A DNA stretch of 64,000 nt from Prevotella sp. (lineage in GTDB: Bacteria > Bacteroidota > Bacteroidia > Bacteroidales > Bacteroidaceae). Under the pieces are notes generated by a model. That model saw only the letters and a program-made list of their open reading frames with translations, did not search any database and was not told the DNA's origin. The position numbers and the translations under genes are program-made. The stretch lies in contig JAFTGB010000027.1 of assembly GCA_017458125.1 (NCBI GenBank), positions 33,418 through 97,417 on the forward strand, written 5' to 3'. Shown here piece after piece: positions 35,566-47,535 of the stretch. The number at the start of each line of letters is the position of its first letter. Position 1 is the first letter of the stretch.

Positions 35566-36663
35566 TTACTTCACTCCCACAATCTTGGTCTTGGGCAGTT
35601 CGGCGTTGCGGCGGTTGACGACGGTGACGACGGCCTGGGCCAGATTGATGAAGGCCAGTCCTGTGGCGGTGTCGCTGCTCATGGCTGCCGGTTCGCCGGC
35701 GTCGCCGCTCTCGCAGATGCTTTGCACTAACGGTATCTGTGCCAGCAGGGGCACGCCCATCTCCTCGGCCAGCTGCTTGCAGCCCTCGCGTCCGAAGATG
35801 TAGTAACGGTTCTCGGGCAGCTCGGCAGGCGTAAACCATGCCATGTTCTCGATGAGTCCGAGAATGGGCACGTTGACCTTGTCGTTGCGGTACATGTCGA
35901 TACCCTTGCGGGCGTCGGCCAGTGCCACCTGCTGCGGTGTGGAGACGATGATGGCCCCGGTGATGCCGAGCGTCTGTAGCAGCGTCAGGTGGATGTCGCT
36001 GGTGCCCGGCGGGGTGTCAAGGATGAAGTAGTCCAGCTCGCCCCAGTCGGCATCGGCAATGAGCTGCTTCAGGGCGTTGGTGGCCATGCCGCCGCGCCAC
36101 AGCGTGGCCGTGGTGGGCGAGACGAAGAAGCCTATGGACAGCATTTTGACGCCGTAGGCCTCGATGGGGCTGATGAGGTCGCGTCCGTCCACGTTGACGG
36201 CGTAGGGTCGTGCGTCCTCGACGTGGAACATCTTGGGCATGGAGGGTCCGAAGATGTCGCAGTCCAGCAGTCCCACCTTGTAGCCCAGACGTGCCAGGGC
36301 TATGGCCAGGTTGGCGGCGACGGTGCTCTTGCCCACGCCGCCCTTGCCTGACGACACGGCGATGATGTTCTTCACGTCGGGCAGCAGCTTGCCCACTTCG
36401 GGGCGCGGCTTCGACTTGTACTCCGTGACGATTTCCACCTCCACGTCGCTGCCGCAGTGGTAGTGGATGGCGGCCTCGGCGGCCTTTACTGTCGACTTGA
36501 GGAAGGGGTCGGTGTCGCGCGGGAACTCCAGCACGACGGTAACTTTCTGACCGTTGATAGCGGGTTGGTCGGCGACCATCCCGCTATCAACAAGGTTCTT
36601 TTTCGTGCCGGCATACGTGACGGTAGCCAGCGCGTCCATAATCAGTTTCGGATAGAGTTGCAT
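35566..36663 (-). CDS. mrp: Mrp/NBP35 family Fe-S carrier ATPase
   Basis: 365 residues. An N-terminal FeS_assembly_P domain (MIP18-like, about 5-90), then the P-loop ATPase with the deviant Walker A SSGKGGVGKSTVAANLA, LLDCDIFGPSMPKMF (Walker A' region), and DYFILDTPPGTSDIHLTLLQ (switch II). The C-terminal YYIFGREGCKQLAEEMGVPLLAQIPL is the usual ending. The CxxC that binds the Fe-S cluster in NBP35 is not obvious. Mrp proteins hand Fe-S clusters to apoproteins. It starts 3 nt after the BspA-like gene. Confidence 0.93.
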   Translation of the reverse strand: MQLYPKLIMDALATVTYAGTKKNLVDSGMVADQPAINGQKVTVVLEFPRDTDPFLKSTVKAAEAAIHYHCGSDVEVEIVTEYKSKPRPEVGKLLPDVKNIIAVSSGKGGVGKSTVAANLAIALARLGYKVGLLDCDIFGPSMPKMFHVEDARPYAVNVDGRDLISPIEAYGVKMLSIGFFVSPTTATLWRGGMATNALKQLIADADWGELDYFILDTPPGTSDIHLTLLQTLGITGAIIVSTPQQVALADARKGIDMYRNDKVNVPILGLIENMAWFTPAELPENRYYIFGREGCKQLAEEMGVPLLAQIPLVQSICESGDAGEPAAMSSDTATGLAFINLAQAVVTVVNRRNAELPKTKIVGVK

Positions 36664-36666
36664 TGC

Positions 36667-38403
36667 TTAAAGAGTAGTTTTTTCTTTGGTGGCAAGTTTC
36701 TGCCAGGCCTTGTCGGCATTGTAGAGCGACTTGCTGCCTGCGGGGATGAGGAACGTGGCTGCCACGCCCTTGAAGGTGCTCTTGGAAATGGAGGGAGGAT
36801 TGGGGCTGTTGAGCACCACCTCGCGCAGCATCGGGCACTTCTGGAAGGCTGAGCCGCCAATCTTCTTCAGTGCTGTCGACAGCTCGGCACGTATCAGCAT
36901 GGCGCAGCCGTTGAAGGCGTCGTCGCCGATGGCGGTCACGGCCACTGGGATTTTGATTTCGCTCAGCGACGTGCACTTCTCGAAGGCGTCGTCACCGATG
37001 CTGAGCAGGGCGACGGGCAGGTCGATGGCACCGAGGGCGATGCAGCCGCTGAAGGCGTTGCTGCCAATTTTCTTCACCGTCGCAGGCAGCGACACTGTGG
37101 TCAGCTTGGTGCAGCCCTTGAACAGGTCGCTCTCCACTTCCTCGATGAAGCCGCCGATGTTGGCCGTTGCCAGCTGTGTGCAGTTCTGGAAGGCACTGCT
37201 GCCTATCTTCTTCACCATGTTGGGAATGCTGATGCTCTGCAGGGCACTGCACTTCTGGAATGCCTTGCTGCCTATCTTGGTCAGCATGTTGGGCAGTTCC
37301 AGCCCCTGCAGCGAGCGGCAGCCGTCAAAGGCGTTGCTGCCTATCTCCTTCATGCCGTTGGGCAGGCTGACGCTGTTCAGGTTGGAGCAGTCCTTGAAGG
37401 TGTCGTTGCTCAGCTCGTTGAGGCTGCCCTGCATGACCACCTTGCTCAGGCTGGAGCAGTCCTGGAACACCGACGTGCCTAACTTCGAGAGGCGCTCCAT
37501 GCCTACCTCCTTCAGCGACGTGCAGTCCTGGAAGGCCTTGGTGCCTATCTTCTGCACGTTGTCCAGGTTGATGGACGACAGGCTTTTGCAGTCCTCGAAG
37601 GCCGAGCTGCCCAGCTCTTCGGTGCTGGCGGGCAGCACGATGCCGGCCAGACTCTTACAGTTGTGGAAGGCGTCGTTGTCTATCTCCTTCAGCGTCTCGG
37701 GCAGGCTGACGGTGGTCAGCGCCTCGCAGTCGCGGAAGGTGTCGTTGTCCAGCTTCTTGATGCTGGCGTTGACGTTAGCCTGTGCCAGACTCTTGCAGCC
37801 CTGGAAGGCCTGCGTGCCTATCTCCTTGACGCTGGCCGGAATGTCTATCGCGGCCAGTGCCTTGCAGTCCTCGAAGGCTTCGCTGCCGATGCTGGTCACG
37901 TACTGCGGAATGTTGATGGAGGCCAGTCGCTCGCAGCCCTGAAACGCCTGGTTGCCAATGGTGGTCACGGTCTCGGGGAGGGTGACCTGAACCAGCGACG
38001 TGCAGCCCAGGAAGCAGTTCTTGCTGATGTTGCTGATGTTGGCAGGCAGTGCTACTTGTATCAGCGCCTTGGCACCCGAGAACATGGCGTCGGGCAGCTC
38101 GTTGGCCTTGGTCTTCATGCCGTCCTTGCCCTCGGTGATGACAGCCTCCGACAGGTCGACGCTCGTCACCAGGCACTCGCCGTTCTTCTCTTTGGCCTTC
38201 GTGCGGTTCACTATCTGCTGCAGCAGCTTGATGTCGGCGCCGTTCATAGGACCGCTGACCTTCAGCTCTGCGATTTTCACCCTGTCAGCTTCAGCTATCT
38301 TCGATGCAAGCTGTCCGGCTGACTCCAATGTCACCTGTGTCTTGCCCTGTGCCATGGCAAGCAGTGGCAGGGCAGCAAAAAGGATACTGATTAATCTTTT
38401 CAT
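36667..38403 (-). CDS. BspA-type leucine-rich repeat (LRR_5) protein
   Basis: 578 residues. Signal peptide MKRLISILFAALPLLAMAQ, a small N-terminal domain (to about 110), then 17-18 repeats of about 23 residues, each of the form 'IG..AFqgC.sL..i.lP..v..' (for example TIGNQAFQGCERLASINIPQ, SIGSEAFEDCKALAAIDIPA). The end RGSVKSLYNADKAW-like tail lacks a T9SS-type motif. BspA-type proteins mediate adhesion in Bacteroidota; the partner is unknown. The gene is followed at 3 nt by mrp and preceded by a 88-nt hexanucleotide run, so its expression or start may vary with repeat number. Confidence 0.88.
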   Translation of the reverse strand: MKRLISILFAALPLLAMAQGKTQVTLESAGQLASKIAEADRVKIAELKVSGPMNGADIKLLQQIVNRTKAKEKNGECLVTSVDLSEAVITEGKDGMKTKANELPDAMFSGAKALIQVALPANISNISKNCFLGCTSLVQVTLPETVTTIGNQAFQGCERLASINIPQYVTSIGSEAFEDCKALAAIDIPASVKEIGTQAFQGCKSLAQANVNASIKKLDNDTFRDCEALTTVSLPETLKEIDNDAFHNCKSLAGIVLPASTEELGSSAFEDCKSLSSINLDNVQKIGTKAFQDCTSLKEVGMERLSKLGTSVFQDCSSLSKVVMQGSLNELSNDTFKDCSNLNSVSLPNGMKEIGSNAFDGCRSLQGLELPNMLTKIGSKAFQKCSALQSISIPNMVKKIGSSAFQNCTQLATANIGGFIEEVESDLFKGCTKLTTVSLPATVKKIGSNAFSGCIALGAIDLPVALLSIGDDAFEKCTSLSEIKIPVAVTAIGDDAFNGCAMLIRAELSTALKKIGGSAFQKCPMLREVVLNSPNPPSISKSTFKGVAATFLIPAGSKSLYNADKAWQKLATKEKTTL

Positions 38404-38424
38404 AATGATATGCTTTAAAGTTAT

Positions 38425-38512
38425 CGTTTTCGTTTTCGTTTTCGTTCCCGTTTTCGTTTTCGTCTTCGTTTTCGTTCCCGTTTTCGTTTTCGTCTTCGTC
38501 TTCGTTTTCGTT
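38425..38512. repeat. hexanucleotide run (CGTTTT/CGTTCC/CGTCTT)14
   Basis: Fourteen and a half hexamers CGTTTT with variants CGTTCC (at units 4 and 9) and CGTCTT (units 7, 12 and 13), showing a five-unit (30-bp) higher order. It occupies the gap between trmB and the BspA-like gene (both minus), ending 21 nt before its ATG. Confidence 0.9.
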
Positions 38513-38517
38513 ATAGT

Positions 38518-39279
38518 TCACTTCGCCTTCTCTAACGAGCTGCGCTTCGAGCGGTGGTAGCTGCGGTAGTCGTCCAAGGCTATCTCCACGTCAGGCTCCT
38601 CTAACGTGCCGTCGTGGGGCAGCAGAAAGCGCAGATACTTGATGTCCAGCCCGCGGGCTATCCACATGCTCTCGTAGTACGTCTGGATGCTGGCCGCCAT
38701 GCTGTCCGCGTCCGCCTCGCCGTACAGGTTGGCGGTTTTCTGCTCCACGGGCAGCCCGTTGTGCTCCGCCATCAGCGTGGTGTAGGTGAACAGGAAGTTA
38801 GAGTCGGTCTTCAGGTGTATGCGTCCGCTGTCCGTCAGAAAGCGGCGGTAGCGCTCCATGAAGTAGGTGGAGGTGAGCCGCTTGCGCGGGTTCTTCATCT
38901 GCGGGTCGCTGAACGTCAGCCATATCTCCTGCACCTCGTCAGGGCCGAAGAAGCGGTCGATGAACTCGATGTTGGTGCGCAGGAAAGCCACGTTGCGCAG
39001 TCCTTCGTTGGTGGCCTGCGTGGCTCCCGTCCACATGCGGGCGCCCTTGATGTCGACGCCGATGAAGTTCACCTCCGGCATCAGCTTGGCTAATCCCACA
39101 GTGTACTCGCCCTTGCCGCACCCTAACTCTAAGACGATGGGGTTCTGGTTCTTGAAGTACATCTCGCGCCAGCGTCCTTTCATCTCGAACGAGTCGTTCT
39201 GTATCACCGCAAACGGGTACTGGAAGACACAAGCGTACGTCTCCATGTCTGCGAACTTAGCCAACTTTCCTTTTCCCAT
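38518..39279 (-). CDS. trmB: tRNA (guanine-N7)-methyltransferase
   Basis: 253 residues. It makes m7G at position 46 of tRNA with SAM. Motif I is [35 protein letters not shown]; the catalytic segment is [28 protein letters not shown], and the later [14 protein letters not shown] follows. The C-terminal [25 protein letters not shown] is typical of Bacteroidota members. The ATG is 8 nt from a perfect -7 box, so the message is practically leaderless. The BspA-like gene follows. Confidence 0.95.
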
Positions 39280-39286
39280 AATGGTG

Positions 39287-39318
39287 CAAAGGTACAGAAA
39301 CTTTCTGAAACTGGCAAA
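39287..39318 (-). promoter_or_regulatory. promoter of trmB
   Basis: Minus strand TACCTTTG (plus 39287-39294) and TTTG (plus 39315-39318) with a 20-nt spacer, the strict consensus. Confidence 0.8.
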
Positions 39319-39351
39319 TCCGCGTAAGATTATTTAGCAGTAAAAGTGTGT

Positions 39352-40149
39352 TTACGGTGTAGGCTCAACCCAGCTGACAACGCGAATGCTTACTTCGTAA
39401 AGCAGATAGAGCGGGATGGTAACTAAAATCAGTGTCATCAGGTCGGGTGGGGTGATAATGGCTGCTACCAGCATGATGACAATAAGCGAGTGCTTGCGAT
39501 AATTAGCAAGCATTGTAGACGTTACAATGCCCATCTTGCCAAAGAAGAACGCTATGACTGGTAATTGGAACACCACGCCCATGACCAGCGTCAGCGAGAC
39601 GAACGTGGAGATATATGAGTCGAGTGTGATGTTGCTCACCACCTTGGCCGACACGCTATAAGTGCCGAGGAAACGGAAAGAGATAGGGAACAGCACGAAG
39701 TAAGACATCAGCACACCGAGGATGAACAGCACATAGATGATGCCTGCCACCTGCACCGAATATTTCCGCTCGTCATCATACAGTGCGGGCGAGATGAAGC
39801 GGAACAGCTCATATAATATATAAGGTGAAGCCCCCAACACACCGAGATATACCGCCGTTGTGATGTGCGTCATAAACTGGCTCGACAAGTCCGTGGCTAT
39901 CATCTGCACATGAAACTCGTCGAAATGGAAGTCTATGTTCATAAAATGCATGGCCGACTCTATCCAACGATAGGTGCAGAAGTCCCACTCGCTTGGAGCC
40001 AGTAGCACCTCCCATGTCGTTTCCTTGAAACAAAACACAGTCATTGCGATAGCACCCGCTACCGCAATGACACGGAAAAGCATTCGGCGAAGCACTTCCA
40101 GATGTCCGCCGAATGTAAGTAGTTCGTCATTCTTTGATGACTTCATCAA
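39352..40149 (-). CDS. tatC: Sec-independent protein translocase TatC
   Basis: 265 residues, six spans. TatC is the receptor that binds twin-arginine signals. Conserved: [18 protein letters not shown] near the N-terminus (usual F..HL.ELR.R), the first periplasmic loop, and [19 protein letters not shown], the family signature after span 2. Later [19 protein letters not shown] and [24 protein letters not shown]. It overlaps tatA by 23 nt and is the last gene of the CXXX operon. Confidence 0.95.
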
Positions 40150-40333
40150 TATCCTTCTTGGCTTCCTCGAAAGGCTCTACAGCCTCTTTCGCACCTTTCT
40201 TGAACTCACTGATGCCGCGTCCCATGCCTCGCATCATCTCCGGCAGCTTCTTGCCGCCGAAGAGCAAGAGGGCTATGCCAGCTATCAGCATCAACTCAGT
40301 CGTGCCAATGAACAGTAATTGTGCAGCCATCAT
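40127..40333 (-). CDS. tatA: Sec-independent protein translocase TatA/B-type protein
   Basis: 68 residues. A short span ([28 protein letters not shown]) with the FGxKKLPE hinge, followed by an amphipathic helix ([18 protein letters not shown]) and an acidic tail. Only one TatA/B gene is present here, as in systems where a single protein serves both roles. It overlaps the preceding 94-residue gene by 4 nt (ATGA) and tatC by 23 nt, so it is translationally coupled to the peptide maturation genes. Confidence 0.93.
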
Positions 40334-40614
40334 GCTTCGCTCGCAACAAGAGTTATCTCACATGTCTGGAAATTGATCTCCCAGTTTCCTTTGGGATGAC
40401 TCTCCCATCCATATTGTTTGGCTTTCTCGTCCCACCATTGTTGGAACTTACTGCCAGTCTCGCCCATGTCCTTTACCAACTTTTCGTATAGTTCGTTGTT
40501 GTCGGCTGTGACAATCTTGGCTAACTCTGTTAAACCATTCTTGCGCTCAAAGAGTGCTTGAATCTCATTTCGCTCTTCTGGGGTAACTTTTCCCACAATT
40601 TTTCTTACTTCCAT
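40330..40614 (-). CDS. CXXX-repeat peptide modification system small protein
   Basis: 94 residues, soluble, helical: [62 protein letters not shown], and an ending [13 protein letters not shown]. Its size, sequence and place match the family called 'CXXX repeat peptide modification system protein' in the NCBI/TIGRFAM collections. It overlaps the SPASM-protein gene by 10 nt upstream and tatA by 4 nt downstream. Its molecular task is unknown; an adaptor or carrier for the precursor is a guess. Confidence 0.75.
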
Positions 40615-41540
40615 CTGTTCAAAATATTAAAGGGGTCTAAATAATCTATTTCCTTAATCTCGTGGTTGTCTCTTAACATAATGCCTCTTTCCTTCAGTTT
40701 TGCCAACAAATTGCGTGAGGCATTCCGCTCAATATGTGCTATTACACACTGCTGATGTGAAGGTGTGTTTGCGTCAAGCGTCAGTCGTTGGTTCATCCAT
40801 ATGCAACGTTTGCACTGGTAGGCATCACACTGTCGGCACAGCGGTGCATGGTCAAGTCTTAGCAACTGCTGGTTTTTGATGTCTATGCCGTCCTTAAGAT
40901 TTCCTATGCAGTCCTCTTTATCATCAAAATAGAATGCAGGGCAGAGGTAGAAGCAACCGTTTGGTGCCAGCGTTATGTTATTGTCCCCAGCATTACAGTT
41001 GTTCATTTCTGTCAGCAGCAGACGGTCTGTGAGCAAATTCACCTGTACCTGCCTGTTGTTCGCATACATGTCGGCAATACAGTCACTCAGTTCGTCCAGC
41101 AAAACCGCGTAGTTGTCAATGTCGCTATCCTTGAACGCTTCCGTGTCAGTCAGTACGATGTTCAGTCGATTGACTTTCTTCAGCCATTCCTTTGCCGTCG
41201 CCATGTGTTTGGCCAAGTCCTCACGGCTGGTACGTATGATGCAAGTGCTACCTTCATTTACGGTATCGTCCCATCCGTTCAATACTATCACATCTGCCTC
41301 TTCGCAATTTGCAGAAGGCATGATCTTTGTGTGGTCTATTGACTCAATGGCTTTAAGATATTCCTCCGGCAGTTCATAGTCGGGATAGACAAACTGGATA
41401 TTCAGGTTCTCCTTCATCGCCCACACGATTCCCTGGCGCAAGTTCTCAATACTGATGAGGTTGTGCGCCTGTTTCCTGACCTCATAGTGGCAGTATGACG
41501 TGCTGGTGTCGTCTAATAATATAACAAGGTATGTCAGCAT
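40605..41540 (-). CDS. CXXX-repeat peptide maturase, SPASM-only partner
   Basis: 311 residues. No CX3CX2C radical SAM motif is visible at the N-terminus (only isolated Cys residues). From about 185 it carries a SPASM-type cluster region: CNAGDNNITLAPNGCFYLCPAFYFDDKEDCIGNL, then LCRQCDAYQCKRCIW and QQCVIAH. This agrees with the family annotated as 'CXXX repeat peptide maturase', which works beside a full radical SAM enzyme. It may bind the precursor or pass electrons. It starts 7 nt after the radical SAM gene and overlaps the 94-residue gene. Confidence 0.75.
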   Translation of the reverse strand: MLTYLVILLDDTSTSYCHYEVRKQAHNLISIENLRQGIVWAMKENLNIQFVYPDYELPEEYLKAIESIDHTKIMPSANCEEADVIVLNGWDDTVNEGSTCIIRTSREDLAKHMATAKEWLKKVNRLNIVLTDTEAFKDSDIDNYAVLLDELSDCIADMYANNRQVQVNLLTDRLLLTEMNNCNAGDNNITLAPNGCFYLCPAFYFDDKEDCIGNLKDGIDIKNQQLLRLDHAPLCRQCDAYQCKRCIWMNQRLTLDANTPSHQQCVIAHIERNASRNLLAKLKERGIMLRDNHEIKEIDYLDPFNILNRWK

Positions 41541-41547
41541 AGTCGTC

Positions 41548-42804
41548 TTAGCATTTAGATTCCTTCATTTTTGCTTTCTGCTTCTCATATTCCTCCTGCT
41601 TTCCTTCCAACTCTAACTTTCGGAACAGCTTGTTCCAATAGTAGTTGTTGGCTCGCACCCGTGCCTTGTGCATCTTGCAGATTGTCGTAGCCCGTTGATA
41701 AACGGTATGCGTATCTGCAGCATCATAGTTCTCGCCTTGACACCACGCACAACCACTGGCCACCTCGCAGTCTATACACTCAGGTCTGCTTTGTGTCGTA
41801 CGATCAAGCATCAAGAATGGTCGTAGCTTGTTCTGGTCAATGCCATCACGAATGTTGCCGATAATCCAGGCGGGTTTACTCCTCAGCGAATAGGCCGCAA
41901 AGCGCGTACAAGGATAAAAGTTGCCTGCGGCATCTATTGCCAGCATCTTGCCGGCACCACACCAGTTCTGGTTGTCGCGTACTGGGTCCATTGGCTTGCC
42001 AATATGCTCCATGAAGAACGAGCACACGTAGTATTTATAGTATTCACCATCTATTATAGCATCAGCTAAATCTATTAGTTGGTTTTCAAATAGCTTGTCG
42101 TCCCCTTCATGCCACACATCTTCAAACACGCAGTTGATATTCACCTCATGAATACCGAGACTATAGAGATGGAGCACGCTGTCCTTGATGTACGGAATAT
42201 CAGCAGAGGAGATAGTCACTTTGGTACTTCCGCCAGGGAACTGCTCTAACCAAAGTGGGATGTTCCTCACCACATCGTCGTACGAGCCACGTTCCTCCTC
42301 TGGTTTTGGTACTTCCCCCTGCTCCATTTCCTTGGTCTTCCAAATGCGGTTCAGGTCGTGCTTCTGCTTGGTACCGTCAATGGTGATGCCGATGCTCAAA
42401 TGTGTGTAATTTTTCTTGATGAACCGCTGTACCTTCTCCGTATGATAATTGATACCGTTGGTGGAGAAAGAGAAACGGTAGGAGTCAAACCAATGATGTC
42501 CACGTCGGTACATCTCAGTCTTTAAGTAGTCGCAAATCCTGTCTATAAGTTCTATCTCCAAAAACGGTTCGCCACCAATGAAATCCCAAATAACCGATTG
42601 TTCCCTAAACTCACTTTCGCGCTCCAGTATGTAGTCGATGGCTTCTTTTGCCACCTCCCACGTCATCCGCTCCTTGGTATTCTTTCCCACCAAGTAGCAA
42701 TATTTGCAGGCCAGCTGGCAGTCCTTTGTGACGATGAACGTAATGCTCTTTGCCATTCCGTCCTGCCAGCCACTGGAGTGTTCTTTTACCTTACTGTTTA
42801 CCAT
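41548..42804 (-). CDS. radical SAM/SPASM peptide maturase, CXXX-repeat target family
   Basis: 418 residues. The radical SAM cluster motif is CQLACKYC (Cys29, Cys33, Cys36), followed by the GGEP motif IGGEPFLEIELIDRI and STNGINYH. The C-terminal SPASM region has GAGKMLAIDAAGNFYPCTRF and then ECIDCEVASGCAWCQGENY and TTICKMHK, giving enough Cys for two auxiliary Fe-S clusters. Such enzymes make thioether or other crosslinks in ribosomal peptides. The target is very probably the Cys-rich protein of the preceding gene, whose stop overlaps the ATG here (GCATGGTAA), so translation is coupled. Confidence 0.88.
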   Translation of the reverse strand: MVNSKVKEHSSGWQDGMAKSITFIVTKDCQLACKYCYLVGKNTKERMTWEVAKEAIDYILERESEFREQSVIWDFIGGEPFLEIELIDRICDYLKTEMYRRGHHWFDSYRFSFSTNGINYHTEKVQRFIKKNYTHLSIGITIDGTKQKHDLNRIWKTKEMEQGEVPKPEEERGSYDDVVRNIPLWLEQFPGGSTKVTISSADIPYIKDSVLHLYSLGIHEVNINCVFEDVWHEGDDKLFENQLIDLADAIIDGEYYKYYVCSFFMEHIGKPMDPVRDNQNWCGAGKMLAIDAAGNFYPCTRFAAYSLRSKPAWIIGNIRDGIDQNKLRPFLMLDRTTQSRPECIDCEVASGCAWCQGENYDAADTHTVYQRATTICKMHKARVRANNYYWNKLFRKLELEGKQEEYEKQKAKMKESKC

Positions 42805-44087
42805 GCCGTAATGTTCAATCCTCTACATCTGCCACTGCATGAACCAGTGCATGTTCCGTCGCAGCCACCTGAGCAGCTCACACCACAGCCCGTACCGCAA
42901 CTTCCACTACATCCGTAATAACAACCACCATCGCAGCCACCTGTGCAAGAGGATGAACAACCAGACCCGCATGCTCCTGTGCAACCAGTGGAACAACCAC
43001 TACCACAACTTGTACATGAGCTACCTCCGTTATCACTACCACTGGAGGAACCGGTAACAGGACGAATATTCATTTTTTTATCATAATTATACACATCTTC
43101 TGTGTCGTACCTTGGAGAAGAGCTATTATAATAACATAGATAATATACTTCCTCGGGAAGCCATCCACCTAAAAGGTATTGTATGTCCCCTGTCCAATAG
43201 AAACATGATGACTCTGAATAAGATATTCCTGATTTCAAGTAGCCTGCACATGGCAAGAATATGCTATTCCCGTTTTTTTTACTGGTTGCTTTCAATCCAG
43301 TTACTCCTTTACAAATGAATGTTTCTATTTGACAATTAGCAAATAATTCCTCAAAATCCTTTTTTGACGGCATTTGCCACTTGTTGCCCCATTTTGAACG
43401 AGCTGTATCATATTTTGTGCCACAAATAGATTTACCACTTAAAGATTGTCCCATATTTGTAAAATACATAGTTTTATCACTTCCATATGAAACCCAATAA
43501 TAGAAATCTCCTTTCTCTTCTGGCTTTGTTGCTCCCATATTATATCTTGCCCACTTGACGCTAAGTCCTAAATCAACATACTCATAACCACTAATCGAGC
43601 CAGATGCATCCGAGATGTCAGCCCCATTAGCACTTCCACTTTGATTGTTGTTAGACGAGCTTGTACATGTTTCTTTGCATGTTGAGGAGCAAGTGTCGTT
43701 ACACGTCTTAGAACATTGCCCTTGACATGTTTCAGAACAACTCCCTTCACAACTATCTGAGCACGTGCCTGTACACGAAGAAGAGCAATTATTAGCACAA
43801 GATGAACATGAGTTACTCGTAGAACTATTACTACATGTTGAAGAACAGTCTGAACAATCTCCACCAGCAGAACTATTGGCACAAGCAGTATAACAATTGC
43901 CTTTACAAGAGTCTACACAATTATCGCGACAAGCTGCCTCACACCCATCACAGACATCAGAAGGACAAGCTGTCAATGTCGTCATTATCACCGTTGGAGC
44001 AACTACAAACGTTCCAAGCATAGGAAGTATTTCCTTTGCTGTTTTCTTAAAGAACCGCCTTCGATTCATCAGTTCGTTGTCATTCAT
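42798..44087 (-). CDS. Tat-exported Cys-rich lipoprotein precursor: CXXX arrays around a FISUMP-like domain
   Basis: 429 residues from ATG 44087, chosen because AAAGAGG precedes it and the next residues form a signal peptide; an in-frame GTG at 44210 would add 41 residues. A twin-arginine motif NRRRFFKK (9-11) and a hydrophobic core lead to a lipobox LTAC (Cys41). Next is an array of Cys at every fourth residue (about 41-145, 24 Cys: CRDNCVDSCKGNC, CSETCQGQCSKTC). The middle (about 165-350) is a FISUMP-like fold (YEYVDLGLSVKWARYNMGA, WGNKWQMPSKKDFEEL). A second array (about 360-424, 17 Cys, Gly/Ser-rich) ends the protein. No leader-like core is separate. The next genes give maturation enzymes and TatAC. 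Tat export could carry the folded, modified protein across the membrane. Confidence 0.8.
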   Translation of the reverse strand: MNDNELMNRRRFFKKTAKEILPMLGTFVVAPTVIMTTLTACPSDVCDGCEAACRDNCVDSCKGNCYTACANSSAGGDCSDCSSTCSNSSTSNSCSSCANNCSSSCTGTCSDSCEGSCSETCQGQCSKTCNDTCSSTCKETCTSSSNNNQSGSANGADISDASGSISGYEYVDLGLSVKWARYNMGATKPEEKGDFYYWVSYGSDKTMYFTNMGQSLSGKSICGTKYDTARSKWGNKWQMPSKKDFEELFANCQIETFICKGVTGLKATSKKNGNSIFLPCAGYLKSGISYSESSCFYWTGDIQYLLGGWLPEEVYYLCYYNSSSPRYDTEDVYNYDKKMNIRPVTGSSSGSDNGGSSCTSCGSGCSTGCTGACGSGCSSSCTGGCDGGCYYGCSGSCGTGCGVSCSGGCDGTCTGSCSGRCRGLNITAW

Positions 44088-44216
44088 AACCTCTTTTGCT
44101 TTATAATTAGTACTAATCAAGAATGTAGGAGTCTGTGCCATGCACACATCCGTTTGAATTACATCATCATTCATAGCAAAAGGCATGGGCATAAAGAATG
44201 GCGTGGCCACTCTTAT

Positions 44217-44247
44217 GCACTTGACCTAAGGGGCAGACCTAGGAAAT
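44217..44247. repeat. inverted partial third copy of the 70-bp leader repeat
   Basis: GCACTTGAC (44217-44225) and AGACCTAGGAAAT (44235-44247) are the reverse complement of segments of the 70-bp repeat at 44377-44403. In the transcript the two would pair (13 + 9 bp), closing a loop of about 130 nt that includes a hairpin CACGCC-AAA-GGCGTG (44282-44296). Confidence 0.75.
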
Positions 44248-44374
44248 TTGGAACCCCTCCATACATTTATAAGAATGCTTCCACGCCAAAGGCGTGAGCA
44301 TAGCTAATGCTTGTACGGAAGGAATGCCTTTCCTCGGCTTTCCCTTGCTTTCTTAAATCGAACTATTCCAAAAC

Positions 44375-44457
44375 AGATTTCCTAGGTCTTTTCAGTCAAG
44401 TGCGAAATAATAAGCTAATGCATCTGTGACTCGGGATTTCTCCCCCAAGCCGTTGCA
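44375..44457. repeat. 70-bp direct repeat, copy 1 (in the transcribed leader)
   Basis: Bases 44375-44444 are identical to 44536-44605; similarity continues to 44457 (CCGTTGCA). On the coding strand it contains GGGA-GAAA-TCCC, a 4-bp stem with a GNRA tetraloop. The promoter -7 box starts right at its edge, so copy 1 lies in the RNA leader. Confidence 0.9.
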
Positions 44458-44486
44458 AAGATAAAAAAAGAAATTGGAACGGCAAA
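44456..44486 (-). promoter_or_regulatory. promoter of the CXXX-Tat operon
   Basis: Minus strand TATCTTTG (plus 44456-44463) and TTTG (plus 44483-44486) with a 19-nt spacer. It implies a leader of about 360 nt before ATG 44087, mostly made of repeats. Confidence 0.65.
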
Positions 44487-44535
44487 ATTATTCAGAAGGA
44501 AATTGCAATAAATATAAGAATAATTGTTATCTTAT

Positions 44536-44618
44536 AGATTTCCTAGGTCTTTTCAGTCAAGTGCGAAATAATAAGCTAATGCATCTGTGACTCGGGATTT
44601 CTCCCATAAACCGTTGCA
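44536..44618. repeat. 70-bp direct repeat, copy 2
   Basis: Identical to copy 1 over 70 bp, 161 bp away, upstream of the promoter. Its edge reads CCGTTGCACTGATAG rather than the CAAAGATA of copy 1, so the promoter box is not preserved. The remaining gap to 44753 shows only AT-rich sequence and a short palindrome. Confidence 0.9.
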
Positions 44619-44752
44619 CTGATAGTGAAAATTCAGTAAAGTAATGCATTTGAAGGAAGAAAATTGCAAAAAAAACATGAATTTAACAAAATCAAGAACA
44701 AAAGATATTAAATTTGCACTTGAAATATAGCAAGATTTTGGGGCAAATCTTG

Positions 44753-45157
44753 CTATATTTGTTTGATGATGTCACATAGCTTGATGATTTCCATTCTTGG
44801 AAATTCCAGATTTTTCAATACATCATAATGGTGGTCATCAGTGACTATGTATTTGCCATTGCCAGCAACAGCACAATCAACAAACTTGTCATCATCGGGG
44901 TCTGCTGCTATAACTTTAAAACGATAAAAAGGTGTAACGAATATAGTATAAGGGTTGTTGATAATCACATCTAATGCTAATCTGGCAAAATTATGGCTGG
45001 ACTTGCGTTCAAGAATTTCTTCGTATTCTTCCAAAATCTCGTTTGACACGCACAGCTGGTTACGTCCATCCAAAAATGAAAGCCACAAATCATGATAACG
45101 GCTACGACGTGAAATGCACTGGATGAGGCTGTTGGTGTCAATTACAGAGCGGGCTAT
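44753..45157 (-). pseudogene. PIN-domain toxin gene without a normal start codon
   Basis: The frame codes for a COG1569-type PIN toxin: VIDTNSLIQCISRRSRYHDLWLSF, NQLCVSNEILEEYEEIL, and ADPDDDKFVDCAVAGNGKYIVTDDHHYDVLK, with the usual acidic residues. The first catalytic Asp (VIDTN) is coded at about 45140-45145, but no ATG, GTG, TTG or CTG precedes it in frame; the frame opens at ATA (45155-45157), 2 nt after the antitoxin stop. An ATG at 45170 is in another frame and hits a stop soon. Either a rare start is used or a start loss or frameshift inactivated it. A later TTG at 45088 would remove VIDTN. Confidence 0.65.
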
Positions 45158-45159
45158 AG

Positions 45160-45375
45160 TTAACGAGCATGTAAATCTTCGTGTGCTATTCTATCCAAAG
45201 CGTCCTGATTTAGGATACCCTCGTCCCATAAGCGGTCTGACTCAGCGTCAAGCTGCTTCTGAAAATAGCGTGTCAGCACCATTTGAATCTCTTTAGCATA
45301 GTCCTCGCTATTGTTAAATGAGAAGAGTTTCAAAAGATGAATCTGCGTAGGGTTTAAGTTTGCTGCCTGTATCAT
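45160..45375 (-). CDS. antitoxin partner of the PIN toxin
   Basis: 71 residues from ATG 45375 (an upstream TTG adds 4). NLNPTQIHLLKLFSFNNSEDYAKEIQMVLTRYFQKQLDAESDRLWDEGILNQDALDRIAHEDLHAR: a small helical protein typical of antitoxins placed before COG1569 PIN genes in Bacteroidota; the C-terminal half is the likely toxin-binding part. Its stop lies 2 nt before the first codon of the toxin frame. A 13-nt palindrome at 45438-45450 upstream may be its operator. Confidence 0.75.
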   Translation of the reverse strand: MIQAANLNPTQIHLLKLFSFNNSEDYAKEIQMVLTRYFQKQLDAESDRLWDEGILNQDALDRIAHEDLHAR

Positions 45376-45437
45376 CGTCTGTTTCAAATTATGTTTGTAT
45401 CAGCTTGTCTATTGTTCGATAGCTATTTGATGTGTAC

Positions 45438-45473
45438 TGAGCCATGCTCATATAAAGAGCGATGGCAAAATTA
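45438..45473 (-). promoter_or_regulatory. possible promoter and operator of the PIN module
   Basis: Minus strand -7 box TAATTTTG (plus 45466-45473), weak -33; TGAGC-CAT-GCTCA palindrome at 45438-45450 between promoter and gene. Confidence 0.4.
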
Positions 45474-45555
45474 CGAAAAAAAACGGAATAGCGAAATTTT
45501 TTTGCTGTTTATTTTTCATGTTCCACAAAAGTAAAAATCTATCATGCCCTTTCGC

Positions 45556-45731
45556 TCAAGCAGAAAACATCAGCGGTTCGATTGGATTTTATCAGCGGCG
45601 GTGGTAAAAAGCATCAGCGACGGTGGCGAATTTGATGCCCCGCGGTTCCAAATTTGATTGGCCGATTTACCAAAACGGGTGATACTTTTTGGTGCCGCGG
45701 GGCATAAAATTCGGTGCCGTCAGGCATAAAA
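45556..45731. repeat. 22-bp-period tandem array B
   Basis: Eight 22-bp units (starts 45556, 45578, 45600, 45622, 45644, 45666, 45688, 45710). Units 45600-45731 follow the same order and orientation as units 6216-6347 of array A with about 80% identity, including the switch from GGTGG-type to TTT..GCATAAAA-type units. The rest of the gap 45376-45852 contains no gene. Confidence 0.85.
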
Positions 45732-45786
45732 TTTTAAACCACTGATTATCAATGTATTTCGCGCCGACGTCTCTGTGCCTAAAAAA

Positions 45787-45828
45787 GCATGTGTTCCAGT
45801 ACCGGGCAGGGGGTACTGGAACACATGC
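45787..45828 (-). terminator. intrinsic terminator of the DUF975 gene
   Basis: 17-bp perfect stem GCATGTGTTCCAGTACC (45787-45803) with 45812-45828, 8-nt loop, followed on the minus strand by six T (plus 45781-45786 AAAAAA). Confidence 0.85.
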
Positions 45829-45852
45829 TCGTGAGTGTCCGTGTCGGCGAAC

Positions 45853-46479
45853 TTAGCGGTTTGTCAAAACCCCGTCCTGTTCGGCCTTCAGGTCTTCGTA
45901 GTAGTGTGAAAGGGTTGTCTCGAAGTATGGCTGCAGGAAAATGAAGCCGAGACCCAGCGTAAGGCAGCACAGAATAAACCAGCCTATGAAACTCAGCATC
46001 AGCCAGAAAAGCTCCATCTTGTGACCTTTCATCATCTCGGCGCTCTTCTGCATGGCATCGGCGGCACTTATCTGCTTGTCGTCCTTCAGGATGTACTCTG
46101 TCTGTGAGAACATCATCGTAAGGATGATGCCCGGGACAATGAGCAGCAGGAAGCCGATGACGATGCAGACACTGACCATGAAACCGGCCAGGAAGATGCG
46201 GACGAAGTCCTTGTAGCCGTCGAACAGGCGTTCGTAGGCTATATCCTCATTGCGGATGAGATTGAGGAAGTATGCGGTGATGCCCCATCCCAAGGGCAGG
46301 CACAGCAAGAACCAGAAACCGGAAATGCCGAAGCCCGTTATGCCGTCGAAGAAGGTTGATGCGCCTTGACCGACGAAGCCGGTTAGCAGCGAAACGATGA
46401 CGGTGGCAATGACACCTTTAGACCACTTGCCCTCCAGTGAGGCCAGCGCACGGTTCTTGTAGGTTTGGTTTGTTCCCAT
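45853..46479 (-). CDS. DUF975 family membrane protein
   Basis: 208 residues, about five spans. SLEGKWSKGVIATVIVSLLTGFVG, a middle FLLLIVPGIILTMMFSQTEYILKDDKQISAADAMQKSAEMMKGHKMELFWLMLSFIGW and FIFLQPYFETTLSHYYEDL are typical of DUF975. The KSAEMMKGHK segment is conserved in the family. Function unknown; it stands alone between ilvE and a strong terminator. Confidence 0.9.
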   Translation of the reverse strand: MGTNQTYKNRALASLEGKWSKGVIATVIVSLLTGFVGQGASTFFDGITGFGISGFWFLLCLPLGWGITAYFLNLIRNEDIAYERLFDGYKDFVRIFLAGFMVSVCIVIGFLLLIVPGIILTMMFSQTEYILKDDKQISAADAMQKSAEMMKGHKMELFWLMLSFIGWFILCCLTLGLGFIFLQPYFETTLSHYYEDLKAEQDGVLTNR

Positions 46480-46518
46480 AAAGCGATGTGTTTATAGTGT
46501 TAATGGAACGGTTTCTTT

Positions 46519-47535
46519 TTACTCGATGACAACGGTCGTCCAGCCGTGCTTGTCTTCTGTCTCGCCGTACTGGATGGCGCGCAGGGTGTCGTAAAGCTTC
46601 TTGCTGACGGGACCGGGCTTGTCGCCGAAGGAGTAGCGCTTGCCGGTGTCCATGTCGTCGATGTAGCTGATGGGGCTGATGACGGCTGCCGTACCGCAGG
46701 CTCCGGCCTCCTCGAAGGTGTCGAGCTCTTCCTCGGGAATGGGACGGCGCTCCACCTTCATGCCTAAGTCTTCGGCCACCTGCATGAGGCTCTTGTTGGT
46801 GATGGAGGGCAGAATGGAGGTCGACTTCGGCGTGATGTAGGTGTTGTCCTTGATGCCGAAGAAGTTGGCGGCACCGCACTCGTCCATGTACTTCTTCTCC
46901 TTGGCGTCGAGGTAGAACTCGCAGGCGTAGCCCTTCTCGTGAGCCAGGTTGTTGGCAAAGAGCGATGCGGCGTAGTTGCCGCCCACCTTGTACTTACCGG
47001 TGCCGAGAGGTGCCGAGCGGTCGTAGTCGCGGATGATGACGTAGGGGTTGGCGGCGAAGCCTCCCTTGAAGTAGGGACCTACGGGTGTGACGAAGATAAG
47101 GAAGCAGTATTCCTTAGCGGGGTGTACGCCCACCTGTGCGCTGGTGCCGATGAGCAGCGGACGGATGTAGAGCGTGGCGCCGCTTTCGTAGGTGGGTATC
47201 CACTCCTGGTTGAGGCGTACCACCTTCTTCACCATCTCGGTGAACAGCTCGGTAGACACTTCGGGCATCAGAATGCCGCGGCATGTGGACTGCAGGCGGG
47301 CGGCATTCTCGTCGACACGGAAGATGCGCACCTTGCCGTCCTTGCAGCGGTAGGCCTTCAGCCCCTCAAAGGCTTCCTGACCGTAGTGCAGGCAGGTGGC
47401 TGCCATGTGCAGGTTCAGATACTCGTCGGAGCAGACTTCAATCTCGCCCCACTTGCCGTCACGATAGTAACAGCGTACGTTGTAGTCGGTTTTCATGTAA
47501 CCGAACGACAGGTTTCCCCAGTCTAAGTTCTTCAT
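46519..47535 (-). CDS. ilvE: branched-chain amino acid aminotransferase
   Basis: 338 residues, fold-type IV PLP enzyme. It transfers the amino group between glutamate and the keto acids of Leu, Ile and Val. Seen: YGQEAFEGLKAYRCKDGKVRIFRVDENAARLQ, the PLP Lys in KVGGNYAASLFANNLAHEKGY (Lys in GTGKYKVGGNYA), the cofactor loop EECGAAN-like DECGAANFFGIKDNTYITPKSTSILPSITNKSLMQ and EEAGACGTAAVISPI near the C-terminus. It has its own promoter at 47577-47608. Confidence 0.95.
   Translation of the reverse strand: MKNLDWGNLSFGYMKTDYNVRCYYRDGKWGEIEVCSDEYLNLHMAATCLHYGQEAFEGLKAYRCKDGKVRIFRVDENAARLQSTCRGILMPEVSTELFTEMVKKVVRLNQEWIPTYESGATLYIRPLLIGTSAQVGVHPAKEYCFLIFVTPVGPYFKGGFAANPYVIIRDYDRSAPLGTGKYKVGGNYAASLFANNLAHEKGYACEFYLDAKEKKYMDECGAANFFGIKDNTYITPKSTSILPSITNKSLMQVAEDLGMKVERRPIPEEELDTFEEAGACGTAAVISPISYIDDMDTGKRYSFGDKPGPVSKKLYDTLRAIQYGETEDKHGWTTVVIE

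Follow-up and report, generated by a model that had tools for sequence, protein, structure and literature searches.

The operon studied here raises the question of how a heavily modified, cysteine-rich protein might cross the cytoplasmic membrane. It lies in a 64,000-nt stretch of DNA (hereafter the window) from Prevotella sp. (assembly GCA_017458125.1, contig JAFTGB010000027.1, positions 33,418-97,417 of the forward strand). Six co-directional open reading frames (ORFs), all on the minus strand between 39352 and 44210 in the window ORF listing, encode a precursor with CXXX repeats, a radical SAM/SPASM maturase, a SPASM-type partner, a small accessory protein (TIGR04116), and TatA and TatC of the twin-arginine translocation (Tat) pathway, in this order. 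Judging from gene content, protein families, signal motif, linkage and TatC lineage, we consider it likely that they form a system resembling those for ribosomally synthesised and post-translationally modified peptides (RiPPs), whose product would be exported by the Tat pore of its own operon.

A six-gene operon with tatA and tatC

The genes and their best family matches are as follows.

42798-44087, minus strand: precursor of 429 residues, with a Tat-type lipoprotein signal (MNRRRFFKK...LTAC) and a middle domain flanked by two blocks of CXXX repeats
42798-44210, minus strand: longest ORF of the precursor, from a GTG start at 44210
41548-42804, minus strand: radical SAM/SPASM peptide maturase (TIGR04115, 621.3 bits, cut-off 350)
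40605-41540, minus strand: SPASM-type partner (TIGR04119, 246.5 bits, cut-off 150)
40330-40614, minus strand: small accessory protein (TIGR04116, 97 bits, cut-off 50)
40127-40333, minus strand: tatA (TIGR01411 tatAE, 63.6 bits, cut-off 53.9; PF02416, 56.2 bits)
39352-40149, minus strand: tatC (PF00902, 198.6 bits; TIGR00945, 155.3 bits, cut-off 132.7)

These coordinates and matches agree with a preliminary description of this DNA as a six-gene, same-strand operon. As calculated from the ORF ends, neighbouring genes in operon order overlap by 7 nt, leave a gap of 7 nt, and then overlap by 10, 4 and 23 nt. The precursor probably starts at the ATG at 44087 (MNDNELMNRRRFFKK, 429 residues) rather than at the GTG at 44210, and tatC may start at the ATG at 40146, immediately after the TTG at 40149. 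As judged from the model scores, the family assignments of enzymes and translocon are secure. The adjacent matches to TIGR04115, TIGR04119 and TIGR04116, all well over cut-off, support the identity with the CXXX-repeat modification system that had been proposed. Likewise, TatA and TatC exceed the cut-offs of their models, and the window TatC retains the equivalents of H12, F94, Y100 and E103 of E. coli TatC. The difference from the known system lies in the precursor, which scored 29.5 bits against the target model TIGR04117, under the cut-off of 50; its CXXX repeats are plain nonetheless.

Recurrence of the linkage and the TatC lineage

To place the operon among its relatives, genome contigs were scanned with the radical SAM protein, which gave 338 relatives, and the best 80 were analysed as loci. 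In 52 of these 80, tatC lies downstream on the same strand, its frame opening 1.3-4.9 kb past the end of the radical SAM frame. Thirteen loci are too short for a decision on tatC, so that the linkage holds in 52 of 67 decidable loci. The commonest gene order is radical SAM, partner, TIGR04116, tatA, tatC, and in three genomes whose kept locus is cut short, tatAC stands beside TIGR04116 on another contig (L213, L214, L215). Carriers among named strains include Leyella stercorea DSM 18206, Xylanibacter caecicola PCHR and X. rarus 109. The recurrence of this pairing suggests that export is specialised for modified peptides.

The number of TatCs per genome follows the maturase as well. Within the host's family (151 genomes), 18 carry TIGR04115 at E up to 1e-40. 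The search for TatC covered these 18 together with 98 of the remaining 133, and several of the genomes appear again in the named set. Two intact TatCs were found in 13 of the 18 maturase carriers and in not one of the 98 genomes that lack it (Fisher p 1.6e-13, kinship not corrected for). Extra TatC pieces in three of the 98 were either under the cut-off (G005, G071) or over it with two stops (G084). One TatC lies within 5 kb of the maturase in 11 of the 13 two-TatC genomes; the distance is 7.7 kb in G077, and G134 has it on another contig beside partner genes. The single TatC of the five remaining maturase genomes is beside the maturase in G085, G099 and G125 and elsewhere in G011 and G110.

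We then compared 122 TatCs, 54 of which had been labelled as operon TatCs by a TIGR04116 or TIGR04119 neighbour before tree building. The tree came from a quick search without bootstrap, and the approximately unbiased (AU) test was run after it. A single clade, free of other TatCs, holds 51 of the 54 operon TatCs (Shimodaira-Hasegawa-like approximate likelihood ratio support 97), while those of L070, L080 and L092 fall outside it, next to non-operon TatCs. A single clade for all 54, and with it one origin of the linkage, was rejected by the AU test (p-AU 0.0037); thus, tatAC probably joined CXXX operons at least twice. Together with the linkage and with TatC pairs confined, in the host's family, to maturase genomes, this largely separate clade supports the functional connection to tatAC claimed in the preliminary description.

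Two positions set the clade apart. At position 13 of the window TatC, all 49 ungapped clade members have G and all 59 ungapped others have W; at position 194, Q occurs in 49 of 51 clade members and E in 63 of 64 others. The three TatCs outside the clade have W at 13 and E at 194. In E. coli TatC, E15, F94, Y100, E103, L9, H12 and L13 face the arginines and phenylalanine of the signal (PMC13323110). Position 13 of the window TatC falls in the N-terminal stretch of these residues, and the equivalents of H12, F94, Y100 and E103 are retained in nearly all TatCs compared.

Precursor signals and predicted peptide chemistry

Taking as a CXXX precursor any ORF with at least five CXXXC steps, we obtained 147 from 79 sources, namely the window and 78 loci, all of the 80 except L041 and L075. 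A signal RR is present in 141, of which 132 read RRxFF, five RRxFL, three RRxLF and one RRxLI; the 132 include L061 6323-6775 (RREFF) and L084 551-1051 (RRDFF), whose signals were assigned by eye. As to the six without it, the ORFs in L025 and L033 start near a contig end, that in L067 reads RRTTIAKQFF, and those in L022, L082 and L088 are apparently pieces of split frames, as judged by eye. An RRxFF precursor occurs in 65 of the 67 decidable loci, and the typical signal is SRRxFFKKAAK...LP.... The signal of the window precursor contains MNRRRFFKKTAKEILPMLGTFVVAPTVIMTTLTAC; it combines a twin-arginine motif with a hydrophobic stretch and ends in a lipobox-like sequence, and its NRRRFFKK together with that stretch matches the Tat-substrate pattern R-R-x-F-[LF]-K. 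The twin-arginine signal ascribed to it earlier is thus borne out. A lipobox-like motif is found in 59 of the 141 RR precursors.

These signals bear on the view that the precursor uses Sec like other lipoproteins and that tatAC serves another protein. In its favour, the Pfam model TAT_signal (PF10518) gave no match to the window precursor at E up to 5, and a proline in the hydrophobic part, within positions 7-18, is present in 138 of 140 distinct CXXX signals versus 7 of 32 reductase signals (introduced below). It stands 13 positions after the first R in 128 of the 140; these counts used the signal rows before the by-eye correction of L061 and L084. The near-constant RR with its dominant RRxFF form speaks against this view, as does the probable repeated linkage of tatAC, and no other RR gene was seen by eye among the 14 largest neighbour clusters. 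We therefore regard export by Sec as very improbable. Since PF10518 is silent, the Tat call for the precursor rests on motif and linkage, from which its export is predicted to be Tat-dependent. The 14 clusters (frames of at least 110 residues) consist mostly of what look by eye like shadow frames or exported proteins; inspection by eye, with no family search, revealed no protease or ABC exporter among them.

More distant relatives suggest how the signal arose. TIGR04115 at E up to 1e-90 was found in five of 296 genomes of the phylum, host included. Two of the four others (L208, L209) have RR precursors, with neither tatAC nor TIGR04116 found in 12 kb. The other two have short CXXX-type precursors (L210 5366-5788, L211 7189-7416) that share RKTLPG and lack RR, with no tatAC found in 11-13 kb. 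All four genomes have one TatC elsewhere. This series, of four genomes only, suggests that a peptide without a Tat signal came first, that the Tat signal was then acquired and that tatAC of its own was added last. The shared LP motif is consistent with a leader role separate from RR.

As to the chemistry, the maturase carries the motif CQLACKYC at residue 29, and the sole solved relative found, 5WGG, aligns with its residues 14-384 (E 2.9e-21). We take this chain to be CteB. The window maturase also resembles the PapB model (188 bits, under its cut-off of 340). CteB makes a Cys-Thr thioether and has an N-terminal RiPP recognition element (PMC8326336); the alignment of the window maturase starts only at residue 92 of the 5WGG chain. 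With SCIFF/ranthipeptide maturation by CteB or PapB the operon shares a radical SAM/SPASM enzyme and a Cys-rich target; it differs in a Tat-type target with many CXXX repeats and in the linked SPASM partner and TIGR04116 protein. The SPASM partner (TIGR04119) has no Pfam Radical_SAM match, and its C182, C200, C235, C238, C243, C246 and C265 are invariant in 45 aligned sequences. The TIGR04116 protein has 27 invariant columns in 50 aligned sequences and no convincing solved relative (best E 0.36).

By analogy with CteB, thioether cross-links in the CXXX repeats are the most likely modification, and enzyme similarity is what points to a ranthipeptide-type thioether. The repeats might instead bind metal or clusters, or bear another change. 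Spacing between cysteines is four in 2560 of 2961 intervals, with up to 74 Cys per precursor, which would suit such ligands, and our literature search found no paper on the CXXX families. The resemblance of most of the maturase to 5WGG, taken to be CteB, which forms thioethers (PMC8326336), and its similarity to the PapB model argue the other way, and we think a product free of thioether cross-links unlikely. From the enzymes and the signal peptide, we infer that the product would be folded and cross-linked and would belong to the RiPP class, in which a leader is removed after core modification.

Further observations concern the precursors and their surroundings. The middle domain aligns over 181 columns, at 33% identity, with a protein encoded separately in locus L031; its treatment as a named family was dropped after a Pfam search without match. 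Locus L029 (2751-8212) holds eight CXXX precursors flanking the maturase on both sides, and host contig 25 (L197) contains a 15-residue frame, YMDRRRFFKRAFLYV, similar to the beginning of a CXXX signal. Upstream of the window precursor lie two 89-nt direct repeats (44375-44463 and 44536-44624; 94% identical, 161 nt apart). Two small same-strand ORFs (44753-45088 and 45160-45387) look by eye like a PIN-domain toxin and antitoxin. No RNA element reached the gathering score in window positions 36000-47000, and promoter- and terminator-like sites were similar in count to shuffled sequence.

Other likely Tat cargoes and a proposed export route

The host genome also has a second tatAC, and the idea that the operon is the sole tat locus of its genome has to be given up. 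After the second tatAC come a 4Fe-4S protein, whose SRRSFL is internal (residue 292) and no N-terminal signal, and then an aldo/keto reductase whose signal, SRRSFLK, is N-terminal. Among 60 tatAC loci examined (L220-L279), two were CXXX operons. Of the 58 others, some cut short, 33 have both the 4Fe-4S protein and the reductase nearby and three have one of them; a different RR ORF is present in one locus, and the remaining 21 lack both proteins. Where both are present, the reductase carries an RR signal in 32 of 33 loci and the 4Fe-4S protein an inner RRxF stretch in 17 of 33. The neighbourhood is seen at L221 2817-6700 and in 32 further loci among L220-L270.

A scan of the DNA for the strict pattern RRxF[LF]K, with reversed sequence as control and looser signals missed, gave 13 matches in the host (control 20), of which two are N-terminal in longer frames, the reductase and the CXXX precursor. 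L. stercorea, with one TatC that is CXXX-linked, likewise gave 13 matches (control 20), the CXXX precursor being the sole N-terminal frame. X. caecicola, with three TatCs, all CXXX-linked, gave 27 (control 21); nine frames remained after filtering, two of them with RR at least 95 residues inside and seven of them CXXX precursors, so that all seven strict N-terminal RRxF[LF]K proteins found there are CXXX precursors. Searching nine genomes with PF10518 returned two of these host proteins, the reductase (E 0.05) and the 4Fe-4S protein (E 0.16); three of four TatC-free genomes gave matches from E 0.45 up. Only a CXXX-linked TatC was detected in 16 distinct genomes (19 handles, three duplicates), and in 13 of these no reductase was found at E 1e-60.

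A signal code matched to the TatC, with RRxFF for CXXX precursors and RRxFL for reductases (F or L at +4), was considered and rejected as a rule, because FF is kept in all 15 loci without tatC and because the reductases of three genomes with only CXXX-linked TatC are split, one reading RRDFF and the other two having L or I.

Several observations weigh against an export route reserved for these peptides, besides the host's second tatAC and the silence of PF10518. The source genomes are mostly metagenome-assembled, and the loci are the best 80 of 338. tatC is lacking in 15 of the 80 loci despite at least 6 kb of visible flank (a tatA match is present in two, L028 and L034). An RRxFF precursor nevertheless occurs in every one of the 15, and a different Tat pore is therefore probably able to serve. 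The three genomes mentioned above in which only CXXX-linked TatC was found (G516, G489, G459) have a Tat-type aldo/keto reductase gene, that of G459 with internal stops in both copies. In X. caecicola, the strict pattern missed a frame of 112 residues (PF10518 E 3.5) in which DRRSFMR is accompanied by a hydrophobic stretch. At the equivalent of E. coli E15, the window TatC has V, as do 47 of the 49 ungapped clade members, and the other TatCs are mixed. A hypervariable core under a conserved leader was not supported, the leader being more conserved than the core in 42 of 85 within-locus pairs. Finally, preliminary attempts at Tat display of lanthipeptides are reported to have failed (PMC5686179).

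It is possible, if doubtful, that the precursors are Tat cargo for any TatAC and that the linked tatAC merely settled beside a frequent cargo, with no preference. The 15 loci agree with this, as a TatC lies elsewhere in 14 of the 15 genomes, with the caveat that for L032 and L085 the TatC in question (or one of several) is CXXX-linked too. Placement by cargo also appears common, since 33 of the 58 non-CXXX tatAC loci adjoin likely Tat cargo of their own, and the three reductase-bearing genomes retain another Tat-type gene. What such settling leaves unexplained is the restriction of two intact TatCs to maturase genomes in the host's family, and a clade marked by two differences that are close to fixed, one of which falls in the N-terminal part next to the signal-binding residues. 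Dedicated export, as put forward in the preliminary description, thus suits the TatC lineage better than it does each single genome. A second complete tat locus, which that description had itself named as weakening its claim, is present in the host, and the survey of maturase genomes that it suggested found tatC downstream in 52 of 80 loci.

Under export by the operon's own pore, the precursor would be synthesised with an N-terminal Tat signal that possibly doubles as leader. The radical SAM/SPASM enzyme, the SPASM partner and the TIGR04116 protein would then act on the CXXX repeats within the cytoplasm, thioether links being the most likely result, and the rigid modified protein would leave through the operon TatA-TatC, of a TatC lineage specialised for such cargo. 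A general signal peptidase (I or II) would finally cut the signal, giving a lipid-anchored or free envelope protein. The reading we favour is a specialised TatAC within a system resembling those for RiPPs, with the Tat signal perhaps acting as leader. More tentatively, and a little short of an even chance, the Tat signal would be the RiPP leader itself, the TatC lineage would prefer this leader together with cross-linked cargo, the Tat folding check would act as quality control of modification, and some species would keep Tat mainly for this purpose.

Modified peptides usually leave through ATP-binding cassette (ABC) transporters. The target of QhpD, which acts in the maturation of quinohemoprotein amine dehydrogenase, reaches the periplasm later, as one enzyme subunit and by a different export route, and its maturation is not known to involve tat genes; the cargoes of the TatCd and TatCy of Bacilli are ordinary secreted proteins. 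Peptidase-containing ABC transporters occur in seven of nine selected Bacteroidales clusters in a study whose main text does not contain 'Tat' (PMC10352776). QhpD is a radical SAM enzyme forming thioethers within a protein (PMC8326336), as would happen here. Bacilli have more than one TatC per genome with selective secretion (PMC3827258); multiple TatCs are shared with genomes studied here, whereas the modified-peptide operon is not. A precedent for Tat transport of a thioether-bridged peptide is nisin, displayed on phage via a Tat route (cited in PMC11048544), by an engineered fusion as opposed to a natural operon. Our searches of the open literature showed neither a natural Tat-exported RiPP nor a description of tatAC coupled to the CXXX system, which Haft and Basu 2011 or the NCBIfam comments may mention.

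If the proposed route is true, a Tat-coupled system found in nature would connect two areas of research and would explain the membrane passage of a heavily cross-linked protein. Moreover, pairs of TatC lineages with different cargoes would offer a means of testing how TatC reads signals.

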